From: Leisingera sp. ANG59 | Lineage (GTDB): Bacteria > Pseudomonadota > Alphaproteobacteria > Rhodobacterales > Rhodobacteraceae | Direction: 5' to 3' | Length of the DNA stretch: 64,000 nucleotides | NCBI RefSeq assembly: GCF_013317235.1 | Contig: NZ_WLCM01000013.1 | Location: 1-64,000, forward strand | Shown: piece after piece, positions 59,675 to 63,442 of the stretch | How positions within the stretch are numbered: the stretch's first letter is position 1 | Layout of the letters: the number at the start of each line of letters is the position of its first letter | Program-made: the position numbers and the translations under genes | Notes under the pieces: model-generated | Databases searched by the model: none | What the model saw: only the letters and a program-made list of their open reading frames with translations | What the model was told of the DNA's origin: nothing

Positions 59675-60036
59675 GGCTGGCTGCCCCCCGTGGCCCGGCC
59701 GGCATTCAAACCGGAGACTTCGATTTCGTTTTCGATCTCCAGCTCCGGCGGCGCCGGGTAGGAGACCTCATCGACGCGGCCGAACTGGTCGGGGCGCAGC
59801 GGCAGCAGGCCGAGGCTATCGAAGTTGATGTCGGCCAGGTCGCGCAGGCGCTGCGGGCGGTTGAGATAGGCCCATTCGGCGCGCAGCACGCTGAGGCGCA
59901 CCTGGGCGGCGCCGATTTCGCGCTGCAGCGCGCGGGTGTCTTTCAGCACCTGCTGGGTGGCGTAGTTTTCGCGGTAGGCCCAGAAGGCGAGGCCGAAGAC
60001 GGCCAGGCAGGTTGCGGCATACAGCAAAGTCTTCAT
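59671..60036 (-). CDS. ftsL: Cell division protein FtsL
   Basis: FtsL is a small bitopic membrane protein that activates FtsWI together with FtsB. It has 121 residues. One N-terminal membrane helix (about 3-20) is followed by a periplasmic coiled coil ([19 protein letters not shown] and [19 protein letters not shown] pattern). The [14 protein letters not shown] motif near 56-69 is conserved in alphaproteobacterial FtsL. It overlaps rsmH upstream and ftsI downstream by ATGA. Weak overall conservation means the call leans on position plus the motif. Confidence 0.9.
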
Positions 60037-61025
60037 TTACGCGCCTCTTTCAACTGCGGCATTCCAAGCTCCTTGGCCGAGATCGGCCCCGGTGCGGCGT
60101 CCGTCCGGCGCCCGACCCGCAGGCGGGCGGAGCGGGAGCGCGGGTTTTCGGCCAGCTCCTGCTCGTCCGGGCCCACCGCCTTGCGGGTGACCAGTTCGAA
60201 CTGTGACGGCGCCTCTTCCTGCTCCGGCGCCCAGCGGTTGGCACGGCCGGTCTTGCCCGCGCGGTGCTGGAAGAAGCGCTTGACCATGCGGTCCTCGACC
60301 GAGTGGAAGGTCACGACGGCCAGCAGGCCGCCGGGCTTCAGCGCCCGTTCGGCGGCCAGCAGGCCCTCGAACAGCTCGTCATATTCGGCGTTCACCGCGA
60401 TGCGCAGGCCCTGGAAGCTGCGGGTCGCCGGGTGCGACTGGCCGGGCTTGGGGCGCGGCAGGCAGCTCTCGATGATGCCTGCAAGGCGCAGGGTGGTGGT
60501 GATCGGCTCGATTGCGCGCTCCCGGACAATCGCCTTGGCAATGCGGCGGCTGGCGCGTTCCTCGCCGTAGTGGAACAGGATGTCGGCGATCTGCGCCTCG
60601 GTGAGTTCCGCGATCAGATCGGCGGCGGAAGGGCCGGACTGGGACATCCGCATGTCCAGCGGGCCGTCCTTCATGAAGGAGAAGCCGCGTTCGGCCAGGT
60701 CCAGCTGCATCGAGGAGACGCCAAGGTCCAGCACCACGCCGTCGAGGTCCTGGGCGTATTCATCCATGCGGGAAAAGACGCCCGGCTGCAGGATCAGGCG
60801 GTCGCCGTACTCCCCAGCCCAGGGTTTTGCCAATTCAAAGGCCAGCGGGTCGCGGTCGACGCCGATCACCTGCTCGGCGCCCGCCTCCAACAGGCCGCGG
60901 GTATAGCCGCCGGCGCCGAAGGTGCCGTCCAGCCAGCGGCCCGCGACCGGGGCCACGGCCGCAAGCAGCGGGCGGAGGAGAACCGGGATGTGGGGACCAT
61001 TGGCAGCTGTTTGGTCCTGGGTCAT
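60033..61025 (-). CDS. rsmH: 16S rRNA (cytosine1402-N4)-methyltransferase
   Basis: RsmH (MraW) methylates C1402 in the decoding centre of 16S rRNA using S-adenosylmethionine. It has 330 residues. [15 protein letters not shown] near 12-26, [17 protein letters not shown] near 31-47 (SAM motif I) and [20 protein letters not shown] near 97-116 are family blocks. [15 protein letters not shown] and [16 protein letters not shown] complete it. The ATG is 3 bases after the mraZ stop. Confidence 0.96.
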
Positions 61026-61028
61026 GTC

Positions 61029-61532
61029 TTAAGCGCCCCCGGCGCCGTCTAGGAATTCCATCGGATCGAAGCCTTCGGGCAGGTCTTCCATCCATTCTTC
61101 GGCCTGGGCCAGTTCTTCCTGCTCGTAGGTTTCCGGCTTCCAGATCTGGAAGGTGTCGCCCGCAGCGATGAAAAAGGCCTCTGCCTCAAGGTCGATCTTC
61201 TGGCGCAGTTTTGCAGGCAGCACCAGGCGGCCGGTTTCATCCACGTTGGTCGGGAACGACTGGCCGTGGAACATGCGCTGCAGCATCTTGCGCTGCATCG
61301 AGCCGCGCGGGAGCTGGTCGATCTTGGCGTCGACCTCCTCGATCGCCTCTATAGTATAGCATTCCAGGAAGTTGCGGCGCTGGTCGCCGTAGACGATCAC
61401 CAGTTCCGGGTTCTGGCCGGGCTGCCAGTTGGGATCGGCGGCCTCCAGCACACGGCGAAAGGAGGCAGGAATTGACACCCGCCCCTTGCTGTCCACCTTG
61501 TGGTGGCTTTCGCCTCTGAACCTGCGGCCCAA
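61029..61532 (-). CDS. mraZ: Transcriptional regulator MraZ
   Basis: MraZ is the first gene of the dcw cluster and, in E. coli, a ring-forming repressor of its own operon that binds TGGGN repeats. It has 167 residues. Two SpoVT/AbrB-like half-domains each carry the DxxGR signature: HHKVDSKGRVSIP near 10-22 and NVDETGRLVLPAKLR near 92-106. I chose a TTG start at 61532 because AGGA lies 7 bases upstream and the protein then begins GRRFRGESHHKVD as in relatives. A longer frame from 61655 would run through a strong hairpin and has no ribosome site. Upstream DNA contains many matching boxes. Confidence 0.93.
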   Translation of the reverse strand: MGRRFRGESHHKVDSKGRVSIPASFRRVLEAADPNWQPGQNPELVIVYGDQRRNFLECYTIEAIEEVDAKIDQLPRGSMQRKMLQRMFHGQSFPTNVDETGRLVLPAKLRQKIDLEAEAFFIAAGDTFQIWKPETYEQEELAQAEEWMEDLPEGFDPMEFLDGAGGA

Positions 61533-61580
61533 TTTCCCGTCCTTTTCGCGCGTCCCTCGCGTTGATCCGTCCCCCAGAAT

Positions 61581-61621
61581 GAAAAGGGGCGGGTTGATCT
61601 GCTGCCACTGATCAACCCGCC
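61581..61621 (-). terminator. Attenuator-like hairpin in the mraZ leader
   Basis: GGCGGGTTGATC (61588-61599) pairs perfectly over 12 bp with GATCAACCCGCC (61610-61621), with a 10-base loop. On the minus strand the stem is followed by CCTTTTC (61587-61581). It lies 56 bases upstream of the mraZ TTG, inside the probable leader, so it would terminate or pause transcription before the operon. Confidence 0.65.
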
Positions 61622-61795
61622 GCCTTGGCCCGCTTTGCGGGATGTCCGACTGCACGCGCCACCTGGGGGGATGTCTGCTCGCCCGCGCGCCGGATCTCTT
61701 GTTCGATGAAAGCGAAGGCCTGTATGAAACCTGCTTGTTTTGTTTTTGGCTCTGGGGTCGTTTGGCGCCCCGTCCCTCGTCTCATCTGATGAACT

Positions 61796-61841
61796 AGGGA
61801 TACTATGGGAATTGATGGTCCCGCAACTGTTTTTTGCGGGA
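61796..61841 (-). promoter_or_regulatory. Proximal mraZ promoter candidate with three MraZ-like boxes
   Basis: On the plus strand AGGGA, TGGGA and TGGTC follow each other with 10-base periodicity (61796-61820). On the minus strand these overlap a possible promoter, TTGCGG (61826-61821) and TAGTAT (61805-61800). An 8-bp hairpin, TCCCGCAA (61819-61826) and TTGCGGGA (61834-61841), overlaps the -35. The box orientation is opposite to that of the upstream array. Confidence 0.5.
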
Positions 61842-61943
61842 AGCCGCCGAAGCCTTGACAGGGAATCCGAAGATTCGGACCAGATTCGCGATTGATTCAG
61901 CGGAGGTTTCGGAACTTGTTGTGAGAAAACCCCATACAAACAC

Positions 61944-61993
61944 CAGATATAGAGGTGAGTTGCGGCCGCAATTTTTTTCCCATAGTTTCCCGC
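61944..61993 (-). promoter_or_regulatory. Second mraZ promoter candidate with two MraZ-like boxes
   Basis: On the minus strand CGGGA and TGGGA boxes 10 bases apart (GGG at 61991-61989 and 61981-61979) lie directly upstream of TTGCGG (61971-61966) and TATCTG (61949-61944), spaced 16. A further TGGGG lies just downstream at about 61934-61930. The resulting leader would be about 400 bases. Confidence 0.4.
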
Positions 61994-62145
61994 GATTCCG
62001 CCTGCCCGGCGCCAGAATTCCGAAAAGTTCCCCTTACGTTCGCACACTCCAGCCCGCGGAAGCGCCGGAAATGCCCCGCAACAGCGTTTCAACACCGGGT
62101 GATTCGCGTCTGCAAGAGGGATTGGGCGGAAAACGGACCATGATT

Positions 62146-62226
62146 TCCCATGCCGCCCATGAAATCCCGCCGATCCCATGATTTCCCGGCTGTCCCATGG
62201 TTTCCCGGCCGCCCCATAAGATCCCA
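62146..62226 (-). promoter_or_regulatory. Phased array of nine YGGGN boxes, candidate extended MraZ operator
   Basis: On the plus strand CCC triplets start at 62147, 62156, 62166, 62175, 62185, 62194, 62204, 62213 and 62223, alternating 9 and 10 bases. They form four 19-bp tandem units with consensus TCCC-G-S-C-Y-G-Y-CCCATG. On the minus strand, the coding strand of mraZ, each is a YGGGN box. A degenerate box in phase lies at 62251-62256. The array is about 615-695 bases upstream of mraZ and 152 bases after the mrp stop. Confidence 0.6.
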
Positions 62227-62315
62227 CGCGGTGCTGCAGGTGCCATGCAGTCCCATTTGCAGCAGGCAATCTCATCCGCGCCCGAATTGCAGCGCGGTTG
62301 GCCGTGCTGACTCAC

Positions 62316-62340
62316 AAGGCCCGCCGGAATGGCAGGCCTT
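62316..62340 (-). terminator. Hairpin after mrp
   Basis: AAGGCCCGCC (62316-62325) and GGCAGGCCTT (62331-62340) pair with one mismatch around a 5-base loop, 38 bases after the mrp stop. No clear T-tract is present, so terminator function is tentative. Confidence 0.45.
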
Positions 62341-62377
62341 TCAGTGCTCTCTCTATATTTAGGGGCGGATGAGCGCC

Positions 62378-63442
62378 TCAGGCCATGCCGCCGCCGATCA
62401 GGCCTTCGGCGATGCGGGCGTAGGCCCGGGCCATCGGCCCCTCCCCCGCCGCGATGGGCGTGCCGCCGTCTCCGGCCAGGCGGGTTTCCAGATCAATCGG
62501 CAGCGCGCCCAAAAGCGGCAGCCCCAGCGTCTCGGCCTCTGCCGCGACGCCGCCGTGGCCGAAGATGTGATGCTCGCCGCCGCAGTCCGGGCAGGTGAAG
62601 AAGGACATGTTCTCGATCAGCCCCAGTACCGGGGTCTTCAGCGTCTTGAACATGTCCATCGCCTTGCGCGCATCCAGCAGCGCCACGTCCTGCGGGGTGG
62701 AGACGACGATGGCGCCGGACAGCTCCGCCTTGGTGCAGAGCGTCAGCTGCACGTCACCGGTGCCGGGCGGCAGGTCGACGATCAGCACGTCCAGCTCGCC
62801 CCAGTTCACCTGGCCCAGCATCTGCTGCAGCGCGCCCATCAGCATCGGGCCGCGCCAGACCACCGCCTTGCCCTCCTCCAGCATGAAGCCGATCGACATC
62901 AGGGTGACGCCATGGGCGTGCAGCGGCTCGATGATCTTGCCGTCGGGGCTGGCAGGCCGCCCCTTGGCGCCCATCATGCGGGGCTGGGAGGGGCCGTAGA
63001 TATCGGCGTCCAGCAGCCCTACCTTGCGCCCCTGTTTGGCCAGCGCCACGGCGAGGTTCGACGCAACGGTGGATTTGCCCACCCCGCCCTTGCCGGAGGC
63101 AATCGCCAGGATGCGCTTGACGCCTGCCGGCTTCAGCGGCTCCGCCTGCGGTTTCGGGTGGCCGCCGACCTTGAGGCTGGGGGCGGGCTGCTGCGGCGCA
63201 TGGGCGGTCAGGGCAGCGGAGACGGTTTCAACACCTTCCAGCGACAGCACCGCCGCCTCCGCGGCCTTTCGCAGCGGCTCCATCAGCTTGGCGATCTCGG
63301 GGCTTGGCGCCTCGATCACAAAGCTTACCTTACTGCCCTCGATGCGCAGCGCCCGCAGCATGTCGCGCGACACCAGGGTGCCGCCATCCGGCAGCGCCAG
63401 CCGCTCCAGCACCGCGCGAATCTGTTCCTGTGTGACGGTCAT
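62378..63442 (-). CDS. apbC: Mrp/ApbC family iron-sulfur cluster carrier ATPase
   Basis: This P-loop protein binds and transfers [4Fe-4S] clusters to apo-proteins. It has 354 residues. An N-terminal MIP18/DUF59-like domain (1-90) precedes the deviant Walker A IASGKGGVGKSTVASNLAVAL near 113-133 (written here in part; key Lys in GKGGVGKS). GLLDADIYGPSQPRMMG near 139-155 and the cluster-binding CPDC in SFFTCPDCGGEHHIFG near 279-294 are conserved. GGGGAG precedes the ATG. It reads toward mraZ but is separated from it by an 845-base control region and a hairpin. Confidence 0.94.
   Translation of the reverse strand: MTVTQEQIRAVLERLALPDGGTLVSRDMLRALRIEGSKVSFVIEAPSPEIAKLMEPLRKAAEAAVLSLEGVETVSAALTAHAPQQPAPSLKVGGHPKPQAEPLKPAGVKRILAIASGKGGVGKSTVASNLAVALAKQGRKVGLLDADIYGPSQPRMMGAKGRPASPDGKIIEPLHAHGVTLMSIGFMLEEGKAVVWRGPMLMGALQQMLGQVNWGELDVLIVDLPPGTGDVQLTLCTKAELSGAIVVSTPQDVALLDARKAMDMFKTLKTPVLGLIENMSFFTCPDCGGEHHIFGHGGVAAEAETLGLPLLGALPIDLETRLAGDGGTPIAAGEGPMARAYARIAEGLIGGGMA

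Follow-up and report, generated by a model that had tools for sequence, protein, structure and literature searches.

The mraZ locus and its leader

On the minus strand of the 64,000-base stretch of DNA that was analysed (hereafter the window), mrp is followed by an 845-base spacer, mraZ, rsmH and a penicillin-binding protein gene. The features of this region are collected in Table 1.

Table 1. Genes and regulatory features of the mrp-mraZ region, in window coordinates
Feature	Position	Strand	Remarks
mrp (P-loop NTPase)	62378..63442	-	upstream neighbour of mraZ, same strand
Upstream extension of the array	62241..62284	-	conserved; boxes at 62284, 62274, 62255 and 62245, partly degenerate in the window
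Distal array	62137..62226	-	nine strict YGGG boxes in 10/9 alternation, plus a tenth degenerate box
Middle MraZ-box pair	61978..61992	-	CGGGAAACTATGGGA
Probable UpsM/mraZ promoter	61797..61826	-	TTGCGG, 18 bases, TATCCC
Core triad, inverted	61796..61820	+	boxes at 10-base steps, overlapping the probable promoter
mraZ 5' leader, UpsM-type	61533..61795	-	probable extent
Terminator-like hairpin with T run, in the UpsM-type leader	61582..61621	-	from sequence and fold; family feature in PMC5089854
mraZ	61029..61532	-	likely TTG start at 61532; Pfam PF02381, E=1.2e-17
rsmH (mraW)	60033..61025	-	gene after mraZ in the division cluster

Within the genus the mraZ leader hardly varies (mean entropy 0.08), and its fold, which has z=-4.5, includes the terminator-like hairpin at 61588-61621. 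A simple terminator scan did not include the leader hairpin among its calls, and a search of positions 61400-62500 against Rfam gave no match at E<=1. According to the account available in PMC5089854, transcription in R. sphaeroides starts 268 nt before mraZ with no nearer promoter, and an intrinsic terminator closes the UpsM leader, a feature said to be found in Rhodobacteraceae alone. This known leader places the promoter near 61800 and not near the array. Since a sigma-70 consensus scan of the spacer found no promoter, our assignment of a probable promoter draws on conservation and on the published R. sphaeroides start site.

The array had been placed more than 600 bases from the start, and it does lie 618-694 bases from the likely TTG codon, but about 260 of these bases are probable transcribed leader, so the distance from the array to the probable promoter would be just some 320-430 bases. 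A further terminator-like hairpin is present on the minus strand at 62318-62341, after mrp and just upstream of the array, and is well conserved in the genus.

A strictly spaced array of YGGG boxes

The strict part of the distal array (62147-62226) is composed of nine YGGG boxes on the minus strand, starting at 62226, 62216, 62207, 62197, 62188, 62178, 62169, 62159 and 62150, with steps of 10/9/10/9/10/9/10/9 bases between them. The tenth box, a degenerate TGGT, is found at 62140. The array can be read as four to five modules of YGGGAAATCA-YGGG with a period of 19 bases, and TRF likewise reports a 19-base unit in 4.2 copies (62138-62217).

Chains of GGG in 9/10 steps reach no more than three members elsewhere in the 64-kb window. 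Sixty shuffles of the whole window gave a longest chain of five when order-1 composition was kept and of four with order-2 composition, while the local 190 bases, shuffled 20,000 times, yielded a best chain of six that was reached twice. In the 5.33-Mb genome, the four-box 10/9/10 pattern occurs at three overlapping places within the array and at one place elsewhere. A genome-wide repeat family was rejected as the array is unique in the genome, and tandem-repeat noise was rejected because the register is held while the linkers drift. The array in the spacer before mraZ is thereby confirmed as real.

Conservation and history of the array

The genus set comprises the 20 of 21 Leisingera genomes with mraZ, our own counted among them. 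The remaining member (G212) cannot be taken as a true absence, as its locus falls at a contig break and only contig C5:1-602 matches. The longest YGGG chain has nine boxes in 11 of the 20 genomes, eight in four, seven in three, six in one and three in one. Within the genus alignment the GGG columns have a mean entropy of 0.15 versus 0.90 for the linker columns (MWU p=1.5e-7), and the DNA flanking the array on either side stands at 0.93-0.94. The genus consensus is YGGGAAATCA for the 10-base step, followed by YGGG and five loosely kept bases for the 9-base step. In the upstream extension, whose boxes are one base out of the strict array register, GG is kept at the Y positions 62284, 62274, 62255 and 62245 in 20/20, 19/20, 19/20 and 17/20 genomes, respectively, and the window genome is itself the exception at 62274 (TGAG).

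The earlier note, made from the letters of this stretch, had described nine copies of CCC/GGG in strict 9/10 alternation with degenerate in-phase copies at both ends. Both observations are borne out: shuffles reach six boxes at most, and the degenerate copies upstream are conserved and extend farther than had been noted. The boxes are real, but treating them as one nine-copy array missed that the basic module is a 10-base pair, YGGGAAATCA-YGGG, repeated every 19 bases, rather than nine equal boxes. The note had also named absence or aperiodicity in close relatives as speaking against its reading; the array is present, in 10/9 register, in each of the 20 genus genomes whose locus is assembled. 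The pattern it suggested looking for, a period that persists while the linkers drift, is seen within the genus; outside it there is usually one pair or less and no array.

Distal YGGG chains in the 143 other genera have a maximum length of one box in 56 genera, two in 71, three in seven, four in eight and five in one, compared with shuffles that give chains of two in 22%, three in 1.7% and four in 0.1%. Among named loci outside Leisingera, long chains of 10, 7 and 6 boxes are seen, for example, in a Phaeobacter MAG, Roseovarius nubinhibens ISM and Roseobacter sp. SK209-2-6, respectively. Most Ruegeria-named loci (23 of 26) possess a single distal pair. From these counts the usual state of the distal site looks like a single pair, and growth by 19-base modules may have taken place more than once, in separate lineages. 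One record titled Nocardioides marinus (JAHVJD010000007.1; L166) contains a Leisingera-type mraZ locus with 90% MraZ identity and an eight-box array, and looks mislabelled.

Three box clusters across Rhodobacteraceae

We found mraZ in 194 of 198 Rhodobacteraceae genomes, our own included, and from these took 149 other genomes, one per genus. The upstream DNA was long enough in 145 of them, and in 143 where the distal site is concerned. Sites were scored with a matrix set by hand from genus frequencies and the listed sites, at a threshold of 9; on the other 63.2 kb of the window this matrix gives six matches above 9. Three positions stand out. A distal pair site is seen on the forward strand in 105/143 genera, mostly at -575 to -700 from the mraZ start, a middle pair site on the forward strand in 118/145 (-425 to -525), and a core site on the reverse strand in 135/145 (-250 to -350). 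All three are present in 92 genera and none in five, while 38 of the 143 show no distal site at the threshold used; the distal arm is hence not indispensable. Their counterparts in the window are the array (distal), the pair at 61978-61992 (middle) and the triad at 61796-61820 (core). The array is, by this comparison, the outermost of three clusters of putative MraZ boxes common across Rhodobacteraceae.

In the window genome the pair pattern YGGGAWWNNRYGGGA has seven matches, three of them in the mrp-mraZ spacer. A strict triad pattern with an initial Y has no match, because the first box of the triad starts with A. A strict distal pair is present in 31 of the 42 genera with a detected upstream mrp and also in 27 of the 45 where none was detected, which indicates that it goes with mraZ rather than with mrp.

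The nine G3 tracts of the array, with loops of 6-7 bases, also fit the loose G-quadruplex rule G3N1-7, and might be thought to fold as such in single-stranded DNA or RNA. A structure of this kind has been reported in the S. aureus mraZ promoter region, in the part of PMC11796246 available. However, a quadruplex would leave its loops free, whereas here the Y before GGG, the A after it (in the 10-step boxes) and the exact alternation of loop lengths between 6 and 7 are all conserved. The middle site usually has two tracts only, the core triad lies on the other strand, and the phasing between distant clusters described below would be left unexplained. We therefore consider this explanation very improbable.

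MraZ as the putative binder

The DNA upstream of mraZ in E. coli reads TGGGAAATTG TGGGGCAAAG TGGGAATAAG. Its first operator pair, TGGGAAATTGTGGGG, reaches 18.0 bits when scored with the matrix built from our sites, a value that none of 400,000 random 15-mers attained, and the second pair scores 8.7, just under the threshold of 9. Across the class, 28 of the 29 alphaproteobacterial mraZ loci with the best-scoring matches have a 10-base reverse-strand pair within 700 bases of mraZ. Within 500 bases in these same 29 best-scoring loci, 73 reverse-strand CCC[AG] pairs are spaced by 10 bases, and any single spacing of 4-9 or 11-18 bases is seen once at most; further pairs sit near the multiples 20 and 30.

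For comparison, 10 were taken of the 58 class genomes that had no MraZ match, and one of these 10 (L147) was dropped as it has a mraZ-like frame. In the remaining nine, where rsmH is assumed to carry the operon promoter and one rsmH match (L155) is partial, a 10-base pair lies within 700 bases of rsmH in two, one reverse and one forward. Reverse-strand pairs are thus present at 28/29 mraZ loci versus 1/9 rsmH loci without mraZ (Fisher p=1.6e-6). Moreover, the MraZ model (mean pLDDT 74.5) aligns best to MraZ structures, with Z of 16.1 to the M. genitalium MraZ-promoter cryo-EM structure 9r4j and 15.8 to the four-box complex 9sz7, while other families stay below Z of 5.

Taken as the marks of an operator, the locus has tandem YGGG boxes about 10 bases apart, an intact mraZ downstream and a cluster at the probable promoter, and the boxes are not kept where mraZ is missing (n=9). 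The boxes are consequently well supported as a putative MraZ operator. A regulator other than MraZ could in principle bind them in Rhodobacteraceae, given that binding by MraZ here is read from sequence and that GANTC sites and a palindrome in the spacer suggest further factors acting there. Against such a regulator speak the match to the E. coli operator, the occurrence of the boxes at mraZ across the class, the lack of enrichment before rsmH in genomes missing mraZ and the lack of a second array in the genome, and we judge it improbable. The comparison with E. coli, with the class and with the nine mraZ-less genomes thus backs the earlier proposal of an MraZ operator, but that proposal, in taking the operator as one array, passed over both the UpsM leader and the two further clusters at 61978-61992 and 61796-61820. 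In E. coli, MraZ represses its own gene cluster, as told in the available part of PMC8475190.

Other elements in the spacer

Several other conserved elements share the spacer with the boxes. A palindrome-like element, CNATATNTNGTG, is located downstream of the middle pair (61940-61952, minus strand), is conserved and is also found in L304, L306 and L307; it is close to the NrdR box. Of 116 loci, 58 have this element on the downstream side of their middle pair, and in 47 of the 58 the distance is 40-42 bases. The exact form CWATATNTDGTGT exists in the genome only at mraZ and just before gyrA, and looser matches occur at four places, two of which lie between rnhB and ccrM and before smc (NCBIfam names), versus one match for a control pattern. 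These sites look like a candidate cell-cycle regulon. The palindrome was rejected as a -10 element, as no -35 is conserved.

GANTC, the methylation site of CcrM, accumulates between the distal and middle clusters (-600 to -500; about 62101-62105 in the window), where 142 sequences give 46-72 sites per 25-base bin compared with 3-9 from -800 to -625. The stretch that separates the middle pair from the core triad holds a second GANTC cluster, with four sites in the window genome (61863-61898). Two more conserved blocks, CTTGAAGTTGCGAATCAC..GGTGTTGAAACG and GAACGTAAGGGGAAC, are seen in the genus alignment within the stretch between the distal and middle clusters (62030-62125, minus strand).

Helical phasing of the distal and middle sites

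The distance between distal and middle sites falls into classes with means of 114.0, 124.6, 135.1, 145.6, 155.9, 167.6 and 177.6 bp, plus one genus at 101. These cover 90 of 93 genera, within 100-185 bp, with the values 203, 221 and 254 set aside. The best period for the 90 genera is 10.70 bp (bootstrap 10.50-10.90). When only unambiguous sites are considered, that is, sites without a second candidate nearby, 37 genera give R=0.71 at 10.5 bp (naive p=8e-9) and a best period of 10.55 (bootstrap 10.30-10.95). Twelve named loci with unambiguous sites agree (R=0.64, p=8e-3), and a very strict single-site filter that leaves 12 genera has the same sign (R=0.72, p=2e-3). The distances from each site to the mraZ start, used as a control, show no phasing (R=0.02 for the distal site in 54 genera, 0.02 for the middle in 73 and 0.16 for the core in 28; R=0.26, p=0.16 for 28 distal sites of named loci).

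Kinship was handled by non-overlapping closest pairs on an MraZ tree, built from one short protein, that holds genera and named loci together. Among 23 unambiguous independent pairs there is no difference of 4-7 bp, and the 16 differences of 4 or more have a mean cosine of 0.50 (P=1.8e-3). All 83 independent pairs include one difference of 4, and the 56 differences of 4 or more have a mean cosine of 0.33 (P=1.7e-4), while start-codon controls in the same test give P=0.69 and 0.95. Distal and middle sites are held in fixed helical phase across genera. The agreement is strong, if incomplete, since differences such as 34 and 37 bp are out of phase. Within the genus, the middle pair lies 157, 158 or 159 bases from the innermost distal pair in 20/20 genomes, though the interval is 58% identical on average (minimum 42%). 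For the middle and core sites, 26 independent differences over all sites give P=1.6e-4, although the triad leaves the position of its site ambiguous by 10 bases. Restricted to unambiguous sites, R is 0.69 in 15 genera, with only four independent differences (P=0.45).

The quantised distances could also be a relic, if a long ancestral array had decayed to one pair at differing register positions. Arrays of 9-10 boxes do exist, so that such an ancestor is conceivable, and next to the 54 distal sites made up of a single pair, GGG is slightly more frequent than background (11% versus 4%) at offsets -11, 21, 40 and 73. However, the box register predicts a period of 9.5 or 10.0, and the observed periods of 10.55 and 10.70, whose bootstrap intervals begin at 10.30 and 10.50, speak against that register as the cause of the phasing. 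No strong box remnants stand beside the single pairs either (at most 11% at any other offset), and decay of this sort seems quite improbable.

A length that varies by whole helical turns points instead to one protein body bridging the two sites. Spacing that varies in length but stays in phase with the DNA repeat is what a bridging protein is expected to leave, as established for looping repressors such as Lac. Alternatively, the clusters may form a multi-site MraZ operator without looping, each bound independently, with the distal array serving as a titration sink or as a roadblock against read-through from mrp. The array is indeed closely preceded by mrp and a terminator-like hairpin, its many boxes would act as a buffer for free MraZ, and MraZ operators elsewhere have 3-4 boxes in one cluster near the promoter. 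Independent binding would not, however, lead one to expect helical phasing between clusters over seven length classes, and a roadblock fits poorly with the strict distal pair being found both with and without mrp in the counts given above. We regard this version as rather unlikely.

A proposed looped operator

We propose an autoregulatory MraZ operator in three parts that works by looping, with the array as its distal part, enlarged in Leisingera, and put the probability of this reading at roughly two in three. MraZ, a ring-forming repressor, would bind YGGG boxes one helical turn apart. The inverted triad would sit on the promoter of the UpsM/mraZ leader, with the middle pair about 170 bases upstream of the triad and the distal site another 115-180 bases upstream. 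Matching helix faces would let one MraZ assembly, or touching rings, bridge the distal and middle sites and probably the triad. The DNA between the clusters would then be looped and the promoter kept under cooperative repression, which would amount to autoregulation by MraZ. In Leisingera, and apparently on separate occasions in several other lineages, the distal arm may have grown by two-box, 19-base modules until it held six to ten boxes, and such an arm, with its high avidity, should steepen or strengthen the feedback.

The period inside the array is 9.5 bases versus 10.6 between clusters, hence the array is not simply DNA read from one face. With a step of 9.5 bases, successive boxes turn slightly around the helix, so that a long array would need overtwisted DNA or a superhelical path. 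This fits wrapping and does not show it. The earlier note had suggested that the DNA could wrap around a complete MraZ ring; our data point to helically phased bridging between clusters. A more far-reaching picture of the Rhodobacteraceae division operon, which we offer as tentative, would have MraZ rings on three phased clusters with loops of 115-180 bp and 150-180 bp. In it, the Leisingera arm of nine or more boxes spaced at 9.5 bp would wrap a whole ring, and the GANTC sites inside the distal loop could couple the state of the loop to replication.

MraZ stands at the head of the division cluster in a great many bacteria, yet the purpose of its rings and the benefit of its control are not settled. 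The family-wide phased sites offer a direct and cheap test of DNA looping by MraZ, and structural studies of a filled MraZ ring have a natural DNA substrate in the nine-box array. More generally, the spacing of operators across genera can point to looping ahead of experiment.

Comparison with known systems

The closest described relative of the leader is UpsM of R. sphaeroides, which, in the account available in PMC5089854, shares with our locus a long mraZ leader, an intrinsic terminator and one distant promoter. The terms 'MraZ box', 'TGGG' and 'binding site' do not occur in the main text of that paper, and the operator clusters are new relative to it. For Burkholderia, an MraZ operator of four repeats is described in the available part of PMC7761207, and for Mollicutes, operators of direct repeats in that of PMC8475190; the PDB entry 9sz7 is titled 'MraZ in complex with 4 box promoter'. 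As far as these accounts go, both resemble our locus in having tandem short repeats bound by MraZ, about one turn apart in Burkholderia, and differ from it in having at most four boxes in a single promoter-near cluster, with no phased remote clusters described. Our search of the open-access literature, with subscription papers and preprints outside its scope, found nothing on phased or looped MraZ operators or on such an array.

Looping operators are known from lac, gal and the lambda CI octamer, and the Lrp family wraps DNA around octamers. These systems share with the proposed operator the placement of remote sites on matching helical faces and bridging by a cooperative oligomer. Their proteins and boxes are unrelated, and for the Leisingera operator the bridging is read from comparative spacing.

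The E. coli mraZ operator, with its TGGGN MraZ boxes, was reportedly described by Eraso et al. in 2014. Both operators have YGGG boxes in 10-base steps upstream of mraZ. The one in E. coli is a single cluster of three boxes near the start, on the mraZ strand, with no further 10-base pairs in 434 upstream bases. In contrast, the Leisingera locus has three clusters, of which the one at the probable promoter is inverted and the distal one is an array whose nine or more boxes alternate between 10- and 9-base steps.
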